Below are positions 24,623 to 30,570 of a stretch of 64,000 nt of DNA, piece after piece. The position numbers and the translations under genes were made by a program. Below the pieces are notes generated by a model. That model searched no databases, was not told where the DNA came from, and saw nothing but the letters and a program-made list of their open reading frames with translations. This stretch comes from Verrucomicrobiia bacterium (GTDB lineage Bacteria; Zixibacteria; MSB-5A5; DSPP01), in assembly GCA_035574275.1 (NCBI GenBank), contig DATLYY010000042.1, forward strand, positions 1 through 64,000, written 5' to 3'. Numbering within the stretch: the stretch's first letter is position 1; the number at the start of each line of letters is the position of its first letter.

Positions 24623-25837
24623 GTGAAGACCATTGACCGGGTGATTCCCGACATTTCCCGCCGGGCGCGGCTGCAGCCCGCCAGCCCGATTCGCAAACTG
24701 GTGCCGCTGGCGGATGCGGCCAAGAAGCGGGGCATTACCGTCCATCATTTGAACATTGGCCAGCCGGATCTGCCGCCGCCGGCGGATTTCATCAAGGCGG
24801 TCAAAAACTGGAGCAAGCCGGTTTTGGAATACGGCAACTCCAAGGGGGATTTCCGACTCATCAACAAGGTCATCCGCTACTATAAACAGGAGCTGGACGT
24901 CGATTTGACGGAGCAAAACGTGCAAATCACCACCGGCGGGAGCGAGGCCTTGCTTTTTGCGATGATGGCAGTGACGGTCCCCGGGGACGAAATCGTGGTG
25001 TTCGAGCCGTTTTACACGAATTACAACGGATTTGCCGTGATGGCGGGGATTACGCTCAATCCGGTTGTGACCTACGGCGACAACGGGTACCATTTACCCT
25101 CCGCCGGGGAAATCGAGAAACATATCAATTCCCGCACGCGGGCAATTCTGGTCTGTTCGCCGAACAATCCGACCGGCACGGTCTATTCCAAAAAAGAGAT
25201 GGAAATGGTTGCGGAGCTTTGCCGCAAGCATTCCCTCTTTATGCTTTCCGATGAACCGTATCGCGAATTTATTTACGAAGGGGAGTTTTTTTCCGCTTTG
25301 CATCTCAAGGAAATGGAGGAGCAGGTCATCGTTCTGGATTCCGCCTCCAAGCGGTTTTCCCTCTGCGGGGCGCGGGTCGGCTTCCTTGTCAGTAAAAACA
25401 CAGAGGTTGTGGACGCCGCTTTGCGGATGGGGCAGGCGCGGCTTTCCTCGCCGACCATCGAGCAGGAGGCGGTGACGGCGGCCTTCGACATACCACCCGA
25501 TTACTTTGCCAAAATGGCGGCGGAGTACAAAAAACGGCGGGATTTGCTTTTTTTGCGGCTGGGACAAATGGGCGGCGTTTCCTGTGAAAAGCCGGAAGGG
25601 GCTTTCTATTTGATGGCGCGGCTGCCGGTCGAAGATGCCGAAGATTTCTGCCGCTGGCTTTTGACCGACTTTTCCGTCCAGGGGGAGACCGTGATGATGG
25701 CGCCGGGGAGCGGGTTTTACGCCACGCCGGGAAAGGGAAAGGATGAAGTGCGGATCGCCTACGTTTTGTCCACCGAAAAACTGGACCGGGCCATGAACAT
25801 CCTTGCGGCCGGCCTTTTGAAATTTGCCAAAAAGTAA
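24623..25837 (+). CDS. Class I PLP-dependent aminotransferase
   Basis: 404 residues, fold-type I. NIGQPDLPPP near the N-terminus, EYGNSKGDFRLI, TTGGSEALLFAM, CSPNNPTGTVYSK, SDEPYREFIYEG, the PLP-lysine motif DSASKRFSLCGARVGF, and the C-terminal VRIAYVLS arginine region. It belongs to a different branch from the aminotransferase at 6188; the closest functional labels would be aspartate/aromatic-type, but substrate is not determinable. The start is GTG 24623 with GAGG nine bases upstream. Its stop overlaps the start of the ROK kinase gene by 14 bases, so the two are translated together. Confidence 0.86.
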   Translation: MKTIDRVIPDISRRARLQPASPIRKLVPLADAAKKRGITVHHLNIGQPDLPPPADFIKAVKNWSKPVLEYGNSKGDFRLINKVIRYYKQELDVDLTEQNVQITTGGSEALLFAMMAVTVPGDEIVVFEPFYTNYNGFAVMAGITLNPVVTYGDNGYHLPSAGEIEKHINSRTRAILVCSPNNPTGTVYSKKEMEMVAELCRKHSLFMLSDEPYREFIYEGEFFSALHLKEMEEQVIVLDSASKRFSLCGARVGFLVSKNTEVVDAALRMGQARLSSPTIEQEAVTAAFDIPPDYFAKMAAEYKKRRDLLFLRLGQMGGVSCEKPEGAFYLMARLPVEDAEDFCRWLLTDFSVQGETVMMAPGSGFYATPGKGKDEVRIAYVLSTEKLDRAMNILAAGLLKFAKK

Positions 25838-26741
25838 GACCGCGGTTTTCATCGGGCTGGATTTGGGGGGGACCGACCTCAAATACGGGCTGGTCGGTTC
25901 CGCCGGCAAAATTCTGGTTTCAAAAAAAATCCGCGCAAAAATCAACGAAGGGCAAAGAGCGCTGGTTGAACAGTTGCGCTCTTCTGCGCGGGAACTTCTT
26001 GCCGTTGCATCCGAAAAGAAGTGGAACGTCAAGCGGATTGGAATCGGCAGTCCGGGAGCGGTGAATTTTGAAACCGGCAGGGTGGTCGGCAATTCCCCCA
26101 ACATTCCCGGCTGGGAGGGAGTCAACCTCAAAAAAAGTTTGCGCATTTCCGGCATCCCGGCGTTTGCGGACAACGATGCCAACTGTGTGGCGGTGGCAGA
26201 GCTTATTTTTGGCGCGGCAAAGAATTCCAAGTCCGCCTTGTGCGTGACGGTCGGCACCGGAATCGGGGGCGGGCTGGTTCTGAACGGAAAAGTTTATCGC
26301 GGCTCGTCGTATTCCGCTGGAGAAATCGGGCACACCACGCTCGTTTTCGAAGGAAAACTGTGTACCTGCGGCAGTCGGGGCTGTCTGGAAAAATATGCCT
26401 CGGTCTCCGCGTTGATGGAGAATGCTTCGAAACGGGGGTTCGACAGCGTTCGAGCGTTGACGGATGCCGCCAAGACCGATGATGCGGCTGCGATCGAGCT
26501 TATCTCCCAACAAGCGGCATATTTGGGAGCGGGGTTGGCCTCGGCGGTGAACCTCTTGAACCCGGAAAGGCTTATTTTGGGAGGTGGGTTTGTGGACGTA
26601 TATCCGCAAATTTTGAAATTAGTTGAGGAAGAAATAAGGAAAAGAGCTTTTCCGGCGGCGTTGCTGAAGTTGCAGGTCGTAAAAGCGAAACTGGGGAACG
26701 AAGCGGGGTTGGTAGGGGCGGCTTTTTTGGGAAACAGATAA
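25824..26741 (+). CDS. ROK-family sugar kinase (glucokinase-like)
   Basis: 305 residues. ATP-binding IGLDLGGTDLKYGLV at the N-terminus, catalytic Asp in FADNDANCVAVAE, TVGTGIGGGLVLNGKVYRG, the ROK zinc site GHTTL...CTCGSRGCLEKYAS, and ILGGGFVD near the C-terminus. It phosphorylates a hexose such as glucose or N-acetylmannosamine; specificity is not resolvable, though GHTTL with CxCGxxGCLE is normal for glucokinases. The TTG start at 25824 lies inside the aminotransferase gene; the first downstream ATG would delete the nucleotide-binding site. Confidence 0.9.
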   Translation: MPKSKTAVFIGLDLGGTDLKYGLVGSAGKILVSKKIRAKINEGQRALVEQLRSSARELLAVASEKKWNVKRIGIGSPGAVNFETGRVVGNSPNIPGWEGVNLKKSLRISGIPAFADNDANCVAVAELIFGAAKNSKSALCVTVGTGIGGGLVLNGKVYRGSSYSAGEIGHTTLVFEGKLCTCGSRGCLEKYASVSALMENASKRGFDSVRALTDAAKTDDAAAIELISQQAAYLGAGLASAVNLLNPERLILGGGFVDVYPQILKLVEEEIRKRAFPAALLKLQVVKAKLGNEAGLVGAAFLGNR

Positions 26742-26832: not shown

Positions 26833-27360
26833 ATGCGAGGGAAAATCGTCGTCGCCCCGATGGGGGAAATGGATTTCTACCAAATCAACAAGCTCGCGAG
26901 CCAGCTTTCGGCCATTTTCGGTTCCTCCGTCGATATTTTGCAGGGGATGCGGCTGCCGGAGGAGGCGTTTTCGGAGCGCCGGGGACAGTACTATTCCACC
27001 GTCATTCTGGCCAAGTTGGAGGTTTTGAAATCGAACGACCGGGAAAAAATTCTGGGGATTTTGGATGAGGATTTGTACACTCCTTCCAGCTCCAACATCA
27101 TCGGCGAGGCGGACCGGCTGGGGGCGGTCGCCTTGATTTCGCTCTATCATCTCAAGCAGGATTTTTTTGCCGGCGGGGAGGAAGACCGGGTGGTGTATCA
27201 TCGCCTGCTGAAAAAATCGGTGCAGGAGGTGGCGTATTTGTTTGGGCTTTCCTACTGTCATAACCCCAAATGCGTGATGTACAAGGCCTCCAGCGTTTTG
27301 GAATTGGACCAGCTTTCCGACCGGTTCTGCGACAATTGCCAGCGGAAGCTGGGGTGGTAA
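26833..27360 (+). CDS. Archaemetzincin-family protein with degenerate catalytic motif
   Basis: 175 residues, full family length. N-terminal IVVAPMGEMDFYQINKLASQLSAIF and later RRGQYYST and LGILDEDLYTP match archaemetzincins. The region that should read HExxHxxGxxH reads QEVAYLFGLSY: Glu and Gly stay, but all three zinc-binding His are replaced (Gln, Tyr, Tyr). The second, structural zinc site (C-HNPKC-VM ... FCDNC) is intact. So the fold is probably kept while metalloprotease activity is lost, unless another residue binds the metal. A TTGACG (26791) / TATTTA (26814-26819) pair lies just upstream with a very short leader. No obvious operon partner. Confidence 0.85.
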   Translation: MRGKIVVAPMGEMDFYQINKLASQLSAIFGSSVDILQGMRLPEEAFSERRGQYYSTVILAKLEVLKSNDREKILGILDEDLYTPSSSNIIGEADRLGAVALISLYHLKQDFFAGGEEDRVVYHRLLKKSVQEVAYLFGLSYCHNPKCVMYKASSVLELDQLSDRFCDNCQRKLGW

Positions 27361-27496: not shown

Positions 27497-29773
27497 ATGA
27501 ATCTACCCCAGATGATTGATTGGCTGAAAGCCGAGCGGTCTTTCACCGAAAACGTGGTTTTTTGGCGGACTTTGGCGGCCAAGCCCGGGAACTACGTTCC
27601 CTTTCCGGAAAGAATGGAGGGGCGGATTAAGTCGGTATTGCAAAAGCGGGGGATACACCAACTTTATTCGCACCAAGTGGAGGCGTTTGAGAAAGCCTCC
27701 TCCGGCAGGAATTTCGTAGTCGTGACGCCGACGGCCTCCGGAAAGACGTTTTGTTACAACCTGCCGGTTTTGGATGCCATCGCCAAGGAGCACCGCCACC
27801 GGGCGCTCTACATATTTCCCACCAAGGCCTTGGCGCAGGATCAACTGGCGGAGCTGCACGACTTCATCACGCAATTGGAACTGGACATCAAGACTTACAC
27901 CTTCGACGGGGACACGCCCCAGAATGCCCGGCGGGCCGTCCGGTCGGCGGGACATATCGTGGTGACCAACGCCGATATGCTGCACGCCGGGATTCTGCCC
28001 CATCATACCAAATGGATAAAACTTTTCGAGAATTTGAAATTCATTGTTCTGGACGAGTTGCATCAATACCGCGGGGTTTTCGGCAGCCATCTGGCCAACG
28101 TATTCCGCCGGCTCAAACGGATCGCCAATTTCTACGGCTCGAAACCGCAGTTCATTTTTTCTTCCGCAACAATAGCCAATCCAAAAGAACTGGCGGAGAA
28201 GATTTGCGAAGAGCCGGTGGAGTTAATCGATAAAAACGGCGCGCCTTCCGGCACCAAGCATTTTGTCCTCTACAATCCGCCGGTCGTCAACAAAGAACTG
28301 GGGCTGCGGCGCTCTTCCTGGGGGGAGGCGGAGCGGCTGGCTTCCCATTTCATTGAGAATCAAATTCAAACCATCGTTTTCGCCCCCTACCGCCTGTCGG
28401 TGGAAATTATTCTGGCCGGTTTGCAGAACCGTTTGAAACGCTCCGGCATTTCGGAGGAGAAGGTTTCCGGCTACCGGGGGGGGTATCTGCCGCTGGAACG
28501 ACGGGCGGTCGAGCAGGGGTTACGCCGCAAATCACTTCTCGGTGTTGTCACGACCAATGCTTTGGAACTGGGGATTGACATCGGGGAACTGGAGGTTTCA
28601 ATTCTGACCGGCTATCCGGGGACGGTGGCTTCGACTCTCCAACAGGCGGGGCGGGCCGGGCGGAAGAAGGACGTGGCATTGTCCATAATGGTGGCCAACA
28701 GTTCGGCGTTGGACCAGTTTCTGACCTCCAACCCGGATTATCTTTTCGGCTCTCCGCCGGAAGCGGGAATCGTCGACCCCAACAATTTTTCCATTCTCAC
28801 CAGCCAGTTGAAATGCGCCGCGTTCGAGTTACCGTTCGATTCGGAGGAACGGTTCGGCATCGACCCAACCAGGCCGTTTTTGGAAAAACTTTCCGCCGAG
28901 CGGGTTTTGCATCCGGCGGGAAACCGGTACCACTGGACCTCGGACATCTATCCGGCGTCGGAAGTTTCGCTCCGCTCGGCAACGATCGAGAATTTCGTCA
29001 TTTTGAACCGTTCCAACGAGAACAAGGTCATCGGGGAGGTGGATTATCCTTCCGCGCCGATTTTCCTGCATCCCCGGGCGATCTACCTGCACGGCGGGGA
29101 GCGGTATCAGGTCGAAGAACTGGATTGGGAGGGGCGGAAGGCGTACGTCAAGGAGGCGCCGGTCGATTACTACACGGACGCCGAGACCAAAACGGAGGTC
29201 AAAGTTCTCTCCGAAGCGCGAAGCGCCGGTTTCTTTTCGGACAAAGCGTACTGCGGGGAGATTGCGGTCAGTTCCGCCACCGTGCTTTTCAAAAAAATCA
29301 AATTCGGCACGGGGGAAAACATCGGTTCCGAGCACATCAACCTGCCCGAACTGACCATGCACACCACCTCCTTCTGGGCATCGTTTTCCGAAGATTTGGC
29401 GCAAAATGCGGGGATTTCCGCCGGCTCGCTCGGCGCCAGCCTGCGCGGGGTGGCCAATCTTCTCCAAAATCTCGTCCCGCTCTGGGTGATGGCGGACCGG
29501 CGGGACGTCCGGGCCTTTTCGCAGGTGAAGTCCCCGTTCCTCGACCGGCCGGCGATTTTCATCTACGACAACATTCCGGGCGGGGTGGGGTTTGCGGAAA
29601 AAATTTTTGCGATGCGGGAGGAGATTTTCAAAGCCGCCCTCTCGCTGGCCCGCGGCTGCAGTTGTTCCGATGGCTGTCCTTCCTGCGTGGGCCCGACTTT
29701 GGAAGTGGGAAGGGTAAGAAACGACACGGTTGCGATTCTGGAATATATGCTGGGGACGGGGGTGCCGGTTTAG
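27497..29773 (+). CDS. MrfA/YprA-type DEAD/DEAH-box helicase with DUF1998 (MZB) zinc domain
   Basis: 758 residues. Motifs in order: Q-like IHQLYSHQVEAFEKA, Walker A TPTASGKT, TKALAQDQL, DELHQYRG (DExH), SATIANP, TTNALELGIDIG, and QQAGRAGRKKD. The C-terminal third carries DUF1998 with the four-cysteine site CSCSDGCPSC. Bacillus MrfA works with the exonuclease MrfB to remove mitomycin-type adducts; no MrfB-like gene is adjacent, so a DNA-repair helicase role is inferred from the family alone. ATG 27497 follows AGAGGAGATGAAACA. A single-gene unit. Confidence 0.92.
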   Translation: MNLPQMIDWLKAERSFTENVVFWRTLAAKPGNYVPFPERMEGRIKSVLQKRGIHQLYSHQVEAFEKASSGRNFVVVTPTASGKTFCYNLPVLDAIAKEHRHRALYIFPTKALAQDQLAELHDFITQLELDIKTYTFDGDTPQNARRAVRSAGHIVVTNADMLHAGILPHHTKWIKLFENLKFIVLDELHQYRGVFGSHLANVFRRLKRIANFYGSKPQFIFSSATIANPKELAEKICEEPVELIDKNGAPSGTKHFVLYNPPVVNKELGLRRSSWGEAERLASHFIENQIQTIVFAPYRLSVEIILAGLQNRLKRSGISEEKVSGYRGGYLPLERRAVEQGLRRKSLLGVVTTNALELGIDIGELEVSILTGYPGTVASTLQQAGRAGRKKDVALSIMVANSSALDQFLTSNPDYLFGSPPEAGIVDPNNFSILTSQLKCAAFELPFDSEERFGIDPTRPFLEKLSAERVLHPAGNRYHWTSDIYPASEVSLRSATIENFVILNRSNENKVIGEVDYPSAPIFLHPRAIYLHGGERYQVEELDWEGRKAYVKEAPVDYYTDAETKTEVKVLSEARSAGFFSDKAYCGEIAVSSATVLFKKIKFGTGENIGSEHINLPELTMHTTSFWASFSEDLAQNAGISAGSLGASLRGVANLLQNLVPLWVMADRRDVRAFSQVKSPFLDRPAIFIYDNIPGGVGFAEKIFAMREEIFKAALSLARGCSCSDGCPSCVGPTLEVGRVRNDTVAILEYMLGTGVPV

Positions 29774-29847
29774 CCGGGTTGAGAGGCCGGCTGCGGCATT
29801 TTGAGGGGTTCCATTACGCCGTGTTTTAACAGCTTTACAAGATGGAT

Positions 29848-29865
29848 GGGAGTTTTTATACTCCC
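29848..29865. repeat. Intergenic palindrome of the dispersed family
   Basis: GGGAGTTTTTATACTCCC, 6-bp arms, flanked by GAT on the left and GCCACG on the right. It lies just upstream of the CADD gene's ribosome site. Confidence 0.7.
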
Positions 29866-29883
29866 GCCACGAGGAGGAAAAAA

Positions 29884-30570
29884 ATGGAAAAAATAAAAGA
29901 ACTGAAAAATTTGATTCAAGAGAGAAGCATACTCAAGCATCCTTTCTACAAGGCCTGGGCGGCGGGGCTTTTGTCGCAGGAGGATTTGCGGCGGTACGCC
30001 TGCCAGTACTACCACCACGTGCGGGCGTTTCCGACCTACGTGGCGGGCATCATCGCCAACTGTGAAAATCCGCGGCTGCGGTCGGTCCTTTTGGAAAATT
30101 TGAACGACGAGGAGGGTTCCACACCCACCCATCTCGATTTGTGGGTCGATTTCGGCCGCTCGCTCGGGTTGTCCCGGGGGGATATGGAAGGTTCGGAGGT
30201 TTACCCGGAGACGCGCCATTTTGTCAATACCTTCAAGCATTTGACCCGCAACCAGTCCGCGCCGGTGGGGGCTTCCGCTTTGTACGCCTACGAGTCCCAG
30301 ATTCCGGCCGTGGCGGCGGAAAAAATCGATGGATTGAGGAAGTATGAATACGGCGCCAATCTGGACGTCACATTCTTTGCCGTGCACCAGGAAGCGGACG
30401 TGAAACATACGGCAGATTTGGAAAAAGTGCTGGCGGGCTCCGGAGTGCAGGAAAAGGAGAAGGCGGTTTTGGCCGTCGGCCAGGTCTTGAACGGCTGGTG
30501 GGGGCTTTTGGACGGGGTTTTGGCGCGGTCTCCGGAATTGAAAGAAAAAGTGGCCGCCTGCGGGATGTAG
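29884..30570 (+). CDS. CADD-type self-sacrificing p-aminobenzoate synthase (PqqC/TenA fold)
   Basis: 228 residues, helical diiron fold. It matches Chlamydia CADD along its length: SILKHPFYKAWAAG, YACQYYHHVRAFPTYV, LENLNDEEG...THLDLW, ALYAYESQIPAVAAEKIDGL, FFAVHQEADVKH. The metal ligands (Glu of NDEE, His of THLDL, Glu of YES, and H..D..H of the last motif) and the candidate donor Tyr and Lys are all kept. CADD uses one of its own tyrosines to make the p-aminobenzoate ring of folate in bacteria lacking PabABC. ATG 29884 follows GAGGAGG; a start at 29842 would add a non-homologous stretch. fhs at 53358 also fits a folate need. Confidence 0.88.
   Translation: MEKIKELKNLIQERSILKHPFYKAWAAGLLSQEDLRRYACQYYHHVRAFPTYVAGIIANCENPRLRSVLLENLNDEEGSTPTHLDLWVDFGRSLGLSRGDMEGSEVYPETRHFVNTFKHLTRNQSAPVGASALYAYESQIPAVAAEKIDGLRKYEYGANLDVTFFAVHQEADVKHTADLEKVLAGSGVQEKEKAVLAVGQVLNGWWGLLDGVLARSPELKEKVAACGM

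Follow-up and report, generated by a model that had tools for sequence, protein, structure and literature searches.

The locus described here raises the question of what an archaemetzincin can do for a bacterial cell once every histidine of its zinc-binding catalytic motif has been replaced. We know of almost no established biology for archaemetzincins. The gene concerned (Table 1) lies in the window, the term used here for the whole 64,000-nucleotide stretch of DNA that was analysed, and it is the only M54 gene in a genome that is 99.9 % complete.

Fold and catalytic motif of the window protein

The protein matches the Pfam family Peptidase_M54 (PF07998) with 66.2 bits against a cut-off of 24.4, and it scores 134.5 bits with the NCBIfam archaemetzincin model NF033823, which is below the cut-off of 145. 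The four PDB entries found by sequence are all archaemetzincins, as are the best five PDB structure matches of an AlphaFold2 model (mean pLDDT 90.9, computed from a 16-row alignment), which have TM-scores of 0.82–0.86 by query length. AmzA of A. fulgidus (3zvs/4axq) and M. kandleri (2x7m) and the structure 3lmc share the fold at these scores, with a maximum of 0.91 when scored by target length, and carry the same Cys4 residues; however, their catalytic HExxHxxGxxH motif is intact, whereas the window protein lacks this M54 hallmark and has QEVAYLFGLSY in its place. The three zinc ligands are replaced (His131 by Gln, His135 by Tyr and His141 by Tyr), Glu132, the motif glycine Gly138 and Met149 of the Met-turn are retained, and the four cysteines are complete (CX4CXM...CXXC).

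It had been claimed in a preliminary description of this reading frame that all zinc-binding histidines are replaced while the Cys4 site and the rest of the fold are intact, and both statements are borne out by the model and by an alignment to solved archaemetzincins that is gap-free across the motif. The alignment shift that had been named there as a possible objection recovers no histidine: Q131 and Y135 map onto the predicted active-site helix (residues 118–136), and CxNPxC follows directly after the motif. Nor is QEVAYLFGLSY a sequencing error, because a second, independent MAG from this genus (95 % amino acid identity) has the same eleven motif residues despite five synonymous differences over a 19-codon stretch. 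The H, E, H and H columns, like the Met column, are 100 % invariant among 45 M54 proteins whose motif is intact, and the replacement is therefore not chance variation. The window protein is best read as a non-proteolytic archaemetzincin, for which an absence of zinc-dependent proteolysis is predicted.

Table 1. Features of the pseudo-archaemetzincin locus (positions in the window)
Feature	Position	Strand	Basis or remark
Pseudo-archaemetzincin (M54 fold, 175 aa, ATG start)	26833..27360	+	ORF, Pfam, structure prediction
Degenerate catalytic motif QEVAYLFGLSY, residues 131-141, replacing HExxHxxGxxH	27223..27255	+	
Cys4 zinc site, first Cys pair CHNPKC (Cys142, Cys147)	27256..27273	+	Invariant in 66/66 clade members and 135/135 phylum copies
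Cys4 zinc site, second Cys pair CDNC (Cys166, Cys169)	27328..27339	+	Asp167 and Arg171 likewise invariant in the clade
MrfA/YprA-type SF2 DNA helicase, 758 aa (DEAD, Helicase_C, MrfA Zn-binding domain), downstream neighbour	27497..29773	+	Pfam, YprA structure 6znp, synteny
ROK-family kinase, upstream neighbour common to only part of the phylum	25824..26741	+	
PLP aminotransferase, upstream neighbour common to only part of the phylum	24623..25837	+	

The catalytic site and selection across the phylum

The source of the window belongs to the Zixibacteria, and the relatives found by sequence came mostly from MAGs of Candidatus Zixiibacteriota. An M54 match was present in 122 of 133 Zixibacteria genomes and in 78 of the 79 of good quality. 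A motif census of 135 copies from 120 genomes of the phylum found a copy with a broken catalytic motif, here called dead, in 101 genomes, 41 of which lack one or both HxxxH histidines. An intact copy was seen in 18 genomes and both kinds in 7, and for 94 of the 101 genomes with a dead copy no intact copy was found. All four cysteines are present in every one of the 135 copies. A tree computed with the motif columns left out places the window gene in a clade of 66 members (SH-aLRT about 92), and HExxHxxxxxH does not occur there once; a smaller tree with the motif columns included has a 30-member counterpart of this clade with support of 100/97. Within the 66-member clade the first histidine changed state at least six times and the second at least seven times, and the catalytic glutamate is absent from 64 of the 66 members, the genus of the window being the only one that keeps it. 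The nearest outgroups have HExxHxxGxxH (family f13), HExxHxxNxxH (family f2, represented by RBG-1 from the order of the window) and HQxxHxxGxxH (f10). As judged from the motifs, loss of the catalytic site is phylum-wide and not private, and dead copies predominate in Zixibacteria.

This bears on two points raised in the preliminary description. The first was whether the Q-E-Y variant is conserved among relatives with a low dN/dS; this holds within the genus, where both genomes (2/2) have the exact motif, but not beyond it, as a wide variety of substitutions removed the site in other lineages. The second was that a relative with an intact HExxH would indicate a private loss of function. Such a relative does exist, since RBG-1, the sole same-order relative, has an intact HELGHTMNLHH upstream of the same helicase, yet with the dead state prevailing in the phylum the loss is not a private one.

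Pairwise dN/dS values, calculated by the method of Nei and Gojobori for eleven pairs of pseudo copies with dS below 1.7, lie between 0.025 and 0.065 (0.061 for the window and its congener) and are as low as those of the adjoining MrfA helicase, which lie between 0.028 and 0.123. In the pseudo clade, the columns of the third histidine and of the glycine are highly variable (97th and 96th percentile of entropy), the cysteine columns have zero entropy, and N144 and the subfamily-specific residues N19, G38, E44, K61, E63, E71, D94, D167 and R171 are wholly or almost wholly fixed; the lower conservation of the 45 intact M54 sequences outside their invariant columns in part reflects divergence, as they span many phyla. 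The same subfamily-specific residues are already found in the intact RBG-1 protein, and the surface that they define is therefore older than the protease loss. These substitution patterns show that the fold and the Cys4 residues of the predicted pseudo-archaemetzincins are under strong purifying selection. The earlier suggestion of a pseudo-protease that is kept, as opposed to random decay, is in agreement with the phylum-wide loss of the site, the low dN/dS, the invariant Cys4 residues and the retained fold; that it is kept for binding or regulation is what we infer from these data. We consider it very probable that the window protein is catalytically dead and has been selected for another role. 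A family in which most copies are dead, which is nearly universal in its phylum and strongly constrained, and which has one intact sister at the same locus, indicates that the conserved role of the archaemetzincin fold can be a non-catalytic one.

The MrfA helicase next door and the proposed role

The downstream neighbour matches the B. subtilis YprA structure 6znp over its full length (residues 15–748, E=1.2e-257) and contains the Pfam domains DEAD, Helicase_C and MZB. YprA, or MrfA, is the helicase member of MrfAB, a pair that acts in mitomycin repair (PMC12458937; PMC11194089). In 27 of 28 genomes that have a dead copy and MrfA on one contig, the helicase gene follows directly downstream on the same strand, and in a larger census the same arrangement accompanies 74 of 101 dead copies; of the remainder, 10 have little locus sequence left. 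The gap between the two genes is 1–28 nt in most lineages measured and 136 nt in the window. At about 45–50 % protein identity the upstream genes switch from the ROK kinase and aminotransferase to DeoC and others while the pair stays, and at many distant loci little or nothing besides the pseudo-archaemetzincin and MrfA is shared with the window. Because the other neighbours change, the pair is conserved beyond general gene order. Furthermore, the pairing is also seen with the intact RBG-1 copy and, with two genes intervening, in a second clade (f11), and the link with MrfA therefore predates the protease loss.

On the other hand, the dead protein is retained where MrfA was not detected, namely in f7 (G007, G022 and G028) and in G059, G071, G087 and G099–G101, and among the 79 good genomes 78 have the M54 gene as compared with 61 for MrfA. 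Its role can therefore not depend wholly on MrfA, and the idea that it is an obligate MrfA subunit is weakened. The archaemetzincin genes of f10 and f13 have endonuclease V in their vicinity instead of MrfA, which together with the MrfA-less lineages makes it probable that the role touches DNA repair without being exclusive to MrfA. At two of these loci (L158 and L164), where the archaemetzincins are those nearest to the dead clade, a radical-SAM gene is found alongside endonuclease V. The persistence of the dead protein in several lineages without MrfA would also be expected if the adjacency were passive, a matter of inherited gene order, with the pseudo-archaemetzincin acting elsewhere. We regard this as possible but doubtful, considering that the pair holds, often with near-zero spacing, through the upstream switch described above.

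We propose descent from a protease that functioned alongside MrfA and on which the subfamily-specific binding surface was already present, and that cutting became dispensable and was then lost. The surface around the Cys4 site would now belong to an adaptor whose partner is MrfA, the complex of MrfA with its repair substrate, or the transcription machinery, and the adaptor would serve a DNA-repair process. That the pseudo-archaemetzincin acts as a protein-binding adaptor is likely; the placement of this role in the MrfA pathway, to which the conserved pairing points, is put forward more tentatively. On balance we favour, with moderate confidence, a Cys4-zinc adaptor that has no proteolytic activity and probably takes part in MrfA-type DNA repair, both its partner and its mechanism being inferred. 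A more far-reaching version, which we can offer only as a speculative possibility, is that the phylum-wide class descends from a repair-associated protease beside MrfA, possibly acting on DNA–protein crosslinks, and is now a zinc-finger adaptor of MrfA repair.

In B. subtilis the gene partnered with MrfA encodes the exonuclease MrfB (YprB), whereas in the window, where the helicase is a close YprA homologue, the dead archaemetzincin has the adjacent place. Complementation by MrfAB is, according to published work, specific to the species. A replacement of MrfB by the pseudo-protease is not supported, since most genomes with MrfA carry an RNase_H_2 gene resembling MrfB at another place; in that of the window such a match is found at G000:C11:19102-19590 (E=4.2e-28), not beside MrfA. 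Membership of a defence system was also rejected, the small protein having no PADLOC match and the helicase only generic helicase matches. The literature searched contained no description of a phylum-wide pseudo-archaemetzincin clade with complete zinc-ligand loss in some lineages or of a linkage to MrfA, and nothing relevant that connects archaemetzincins with helicases, Zixibacteria or DNA–protein crosslinks. The MrfA repair helicase is a testable candidate partner, and an adaptor of its pathway would, if confirmed, represent a novel type of accessory factor in bacterial DNA repair.

Further observations were made on the helicase genes and their surroundings. In f13 (L165, G036:C79; and G056:C134) a divergent MrfA (36 % identity) adjoins an MrfB-like RNase_H_2 gene, while outside f13 genes of this type lie apart from MrfA. 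At one f10 locus (L159; G047:C109:7632-9899) the MrfA gene has two in-frame stops and appears to be decaying or misassembled; the nearby archaemetzincin gene, with HQxxHxxGxxH, is open. In the window, a gene for a CADD-family (TenA/haem-oxygenase-like) protein (29842-30570; 221 bits, NCBIfam cut-off 200) lies between MrfA and genes resembling those for NADH dehydrogenase subunits.

Other explanations and other variants of the motif

Proteolytically dead archaemetzincins are already known. CarG, a myxobacterial archaemetzincin with a Glu-to-Gln change, binds the N-terminal domain of CarD and is needed for CarD-dependent transcription (PMC4374960; PMC3427221); it has been reported from myxobacteria only (PMC4374960). 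CarG of Myxococcus xanthus (NCBIfam NF033824, non-proteolytic archaemetzincin-like protein) resembles the window protein in its relation to M54, in its size and in having a catalytic site that is disabled. It is reported to be zinc-associated, acts by binding another protein and offers by analogy a precedent for a dead archaemetzincin as a binding partner. The window protein could then be a CarG-like transcription adaptor that binds an RNA-polymerase-interacting domain of the CarD/RID type or another transcription factor, with the adjacency to MrfA reflecting co-regulation only, which would fit its retention where MrfA is absent. However, as described, only the glutamate is changed in CarG, whereas all three zinc histidines are replaced in the window protein, which belongs to another clade, one that spans the phylum and adjoins MrfA. 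It is not a CarG orthologue, scoring 97.4 bits against a family cut-off of 250, and no CarD/CdnL was found in its genome, where the single RID-domain match lies in a 1165-aa frame whose size fits Mfd. We therefore think a CarG-like role in transcription unlikely.

Less probable still is that the clade has a remodelled metal site, HQxxHxxDxx(E/D), with a new activity in some lineages, and that the lineage of the window has lost it secondarily. Among the 66 clade members, His131 is kept in 43 and His135 in 41, the third histidine has become Glu or Asp in 30, and Asp, Glu or Asn is common at the position of the glycine, all of which would suit such a site. Yet the catalytic glutamate is lost from nearly all members, and the genus of the window, along with many others (the 41 genomes that lack one or both HxxxH histidines), is equally constrained without having such a set of ligands.

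Many pseudoenzymes regulate an active paralogue, and the seven genomes with both kinds of copy would allow for this. For the genome of the window it is rejected, given the single M54 gene there, and for the phylum it is very improbable, as almost all genomes with a dead copy are without a detected intact one and the intact paralogues adjoin response regulators, not MrfA. The HExxH paralogues beside a response-regulator gene (L024, L036, L037, L040, L049 and L053) therefore differ in neighbourhood from the dead copies. A pseudogene or private loss heading to decay, as the absence of all ligands beside an intact same-order relative might suggest, is hardly credible for a near-universal gene with invariant cysteines whose frame is open throughout and which has a dN/dS of 0.06 when the two members of the genus are compared.

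Taken as one family, the motifs HExxHxxNxxH, HQxxHxxGxxH, HQxxHxxDxxE and QExxYxxGxxY form a natural experiment in the passage from enzyme to pseudoenzyme, and, if the speculative version given above is true, an unusually complete natural progression in which an active protease turned into a full pseudoenzyme. In the largest subclade (L083, L092, L096, L113, L117 and others; f9 and f19) the motif is HQxxHLFDLx(E/D), with two histidines kept, the catalytic glutamate changed to Gln or Arg and the third ligand to Glu or Asp; possibly this is a metal site that has been remodelled and is non-catalytic. A second Zixibacteria clade (L011, L012, L014, L016, L018, L029 and L039; f4, f5, f11 and f14) has the third histidine replaced by Asn (HExGHxxGxxN), several of its members having Gln for Glu in addition. 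Mammalian AMZ1, like the window protein, has a natural change at a zinc ligand, the third histidine, but it keeps HExxH, and its Asn-type change is better matched by this second clade. Outside the phylum, archaemetzincins of Thermodesulfobacteriota (L139 and L146) have RSFGHxxGxxH or RAIGHxxGxxP, and L139 contains a degenerate and an intact copy in one locus, which suggests an independent loss.
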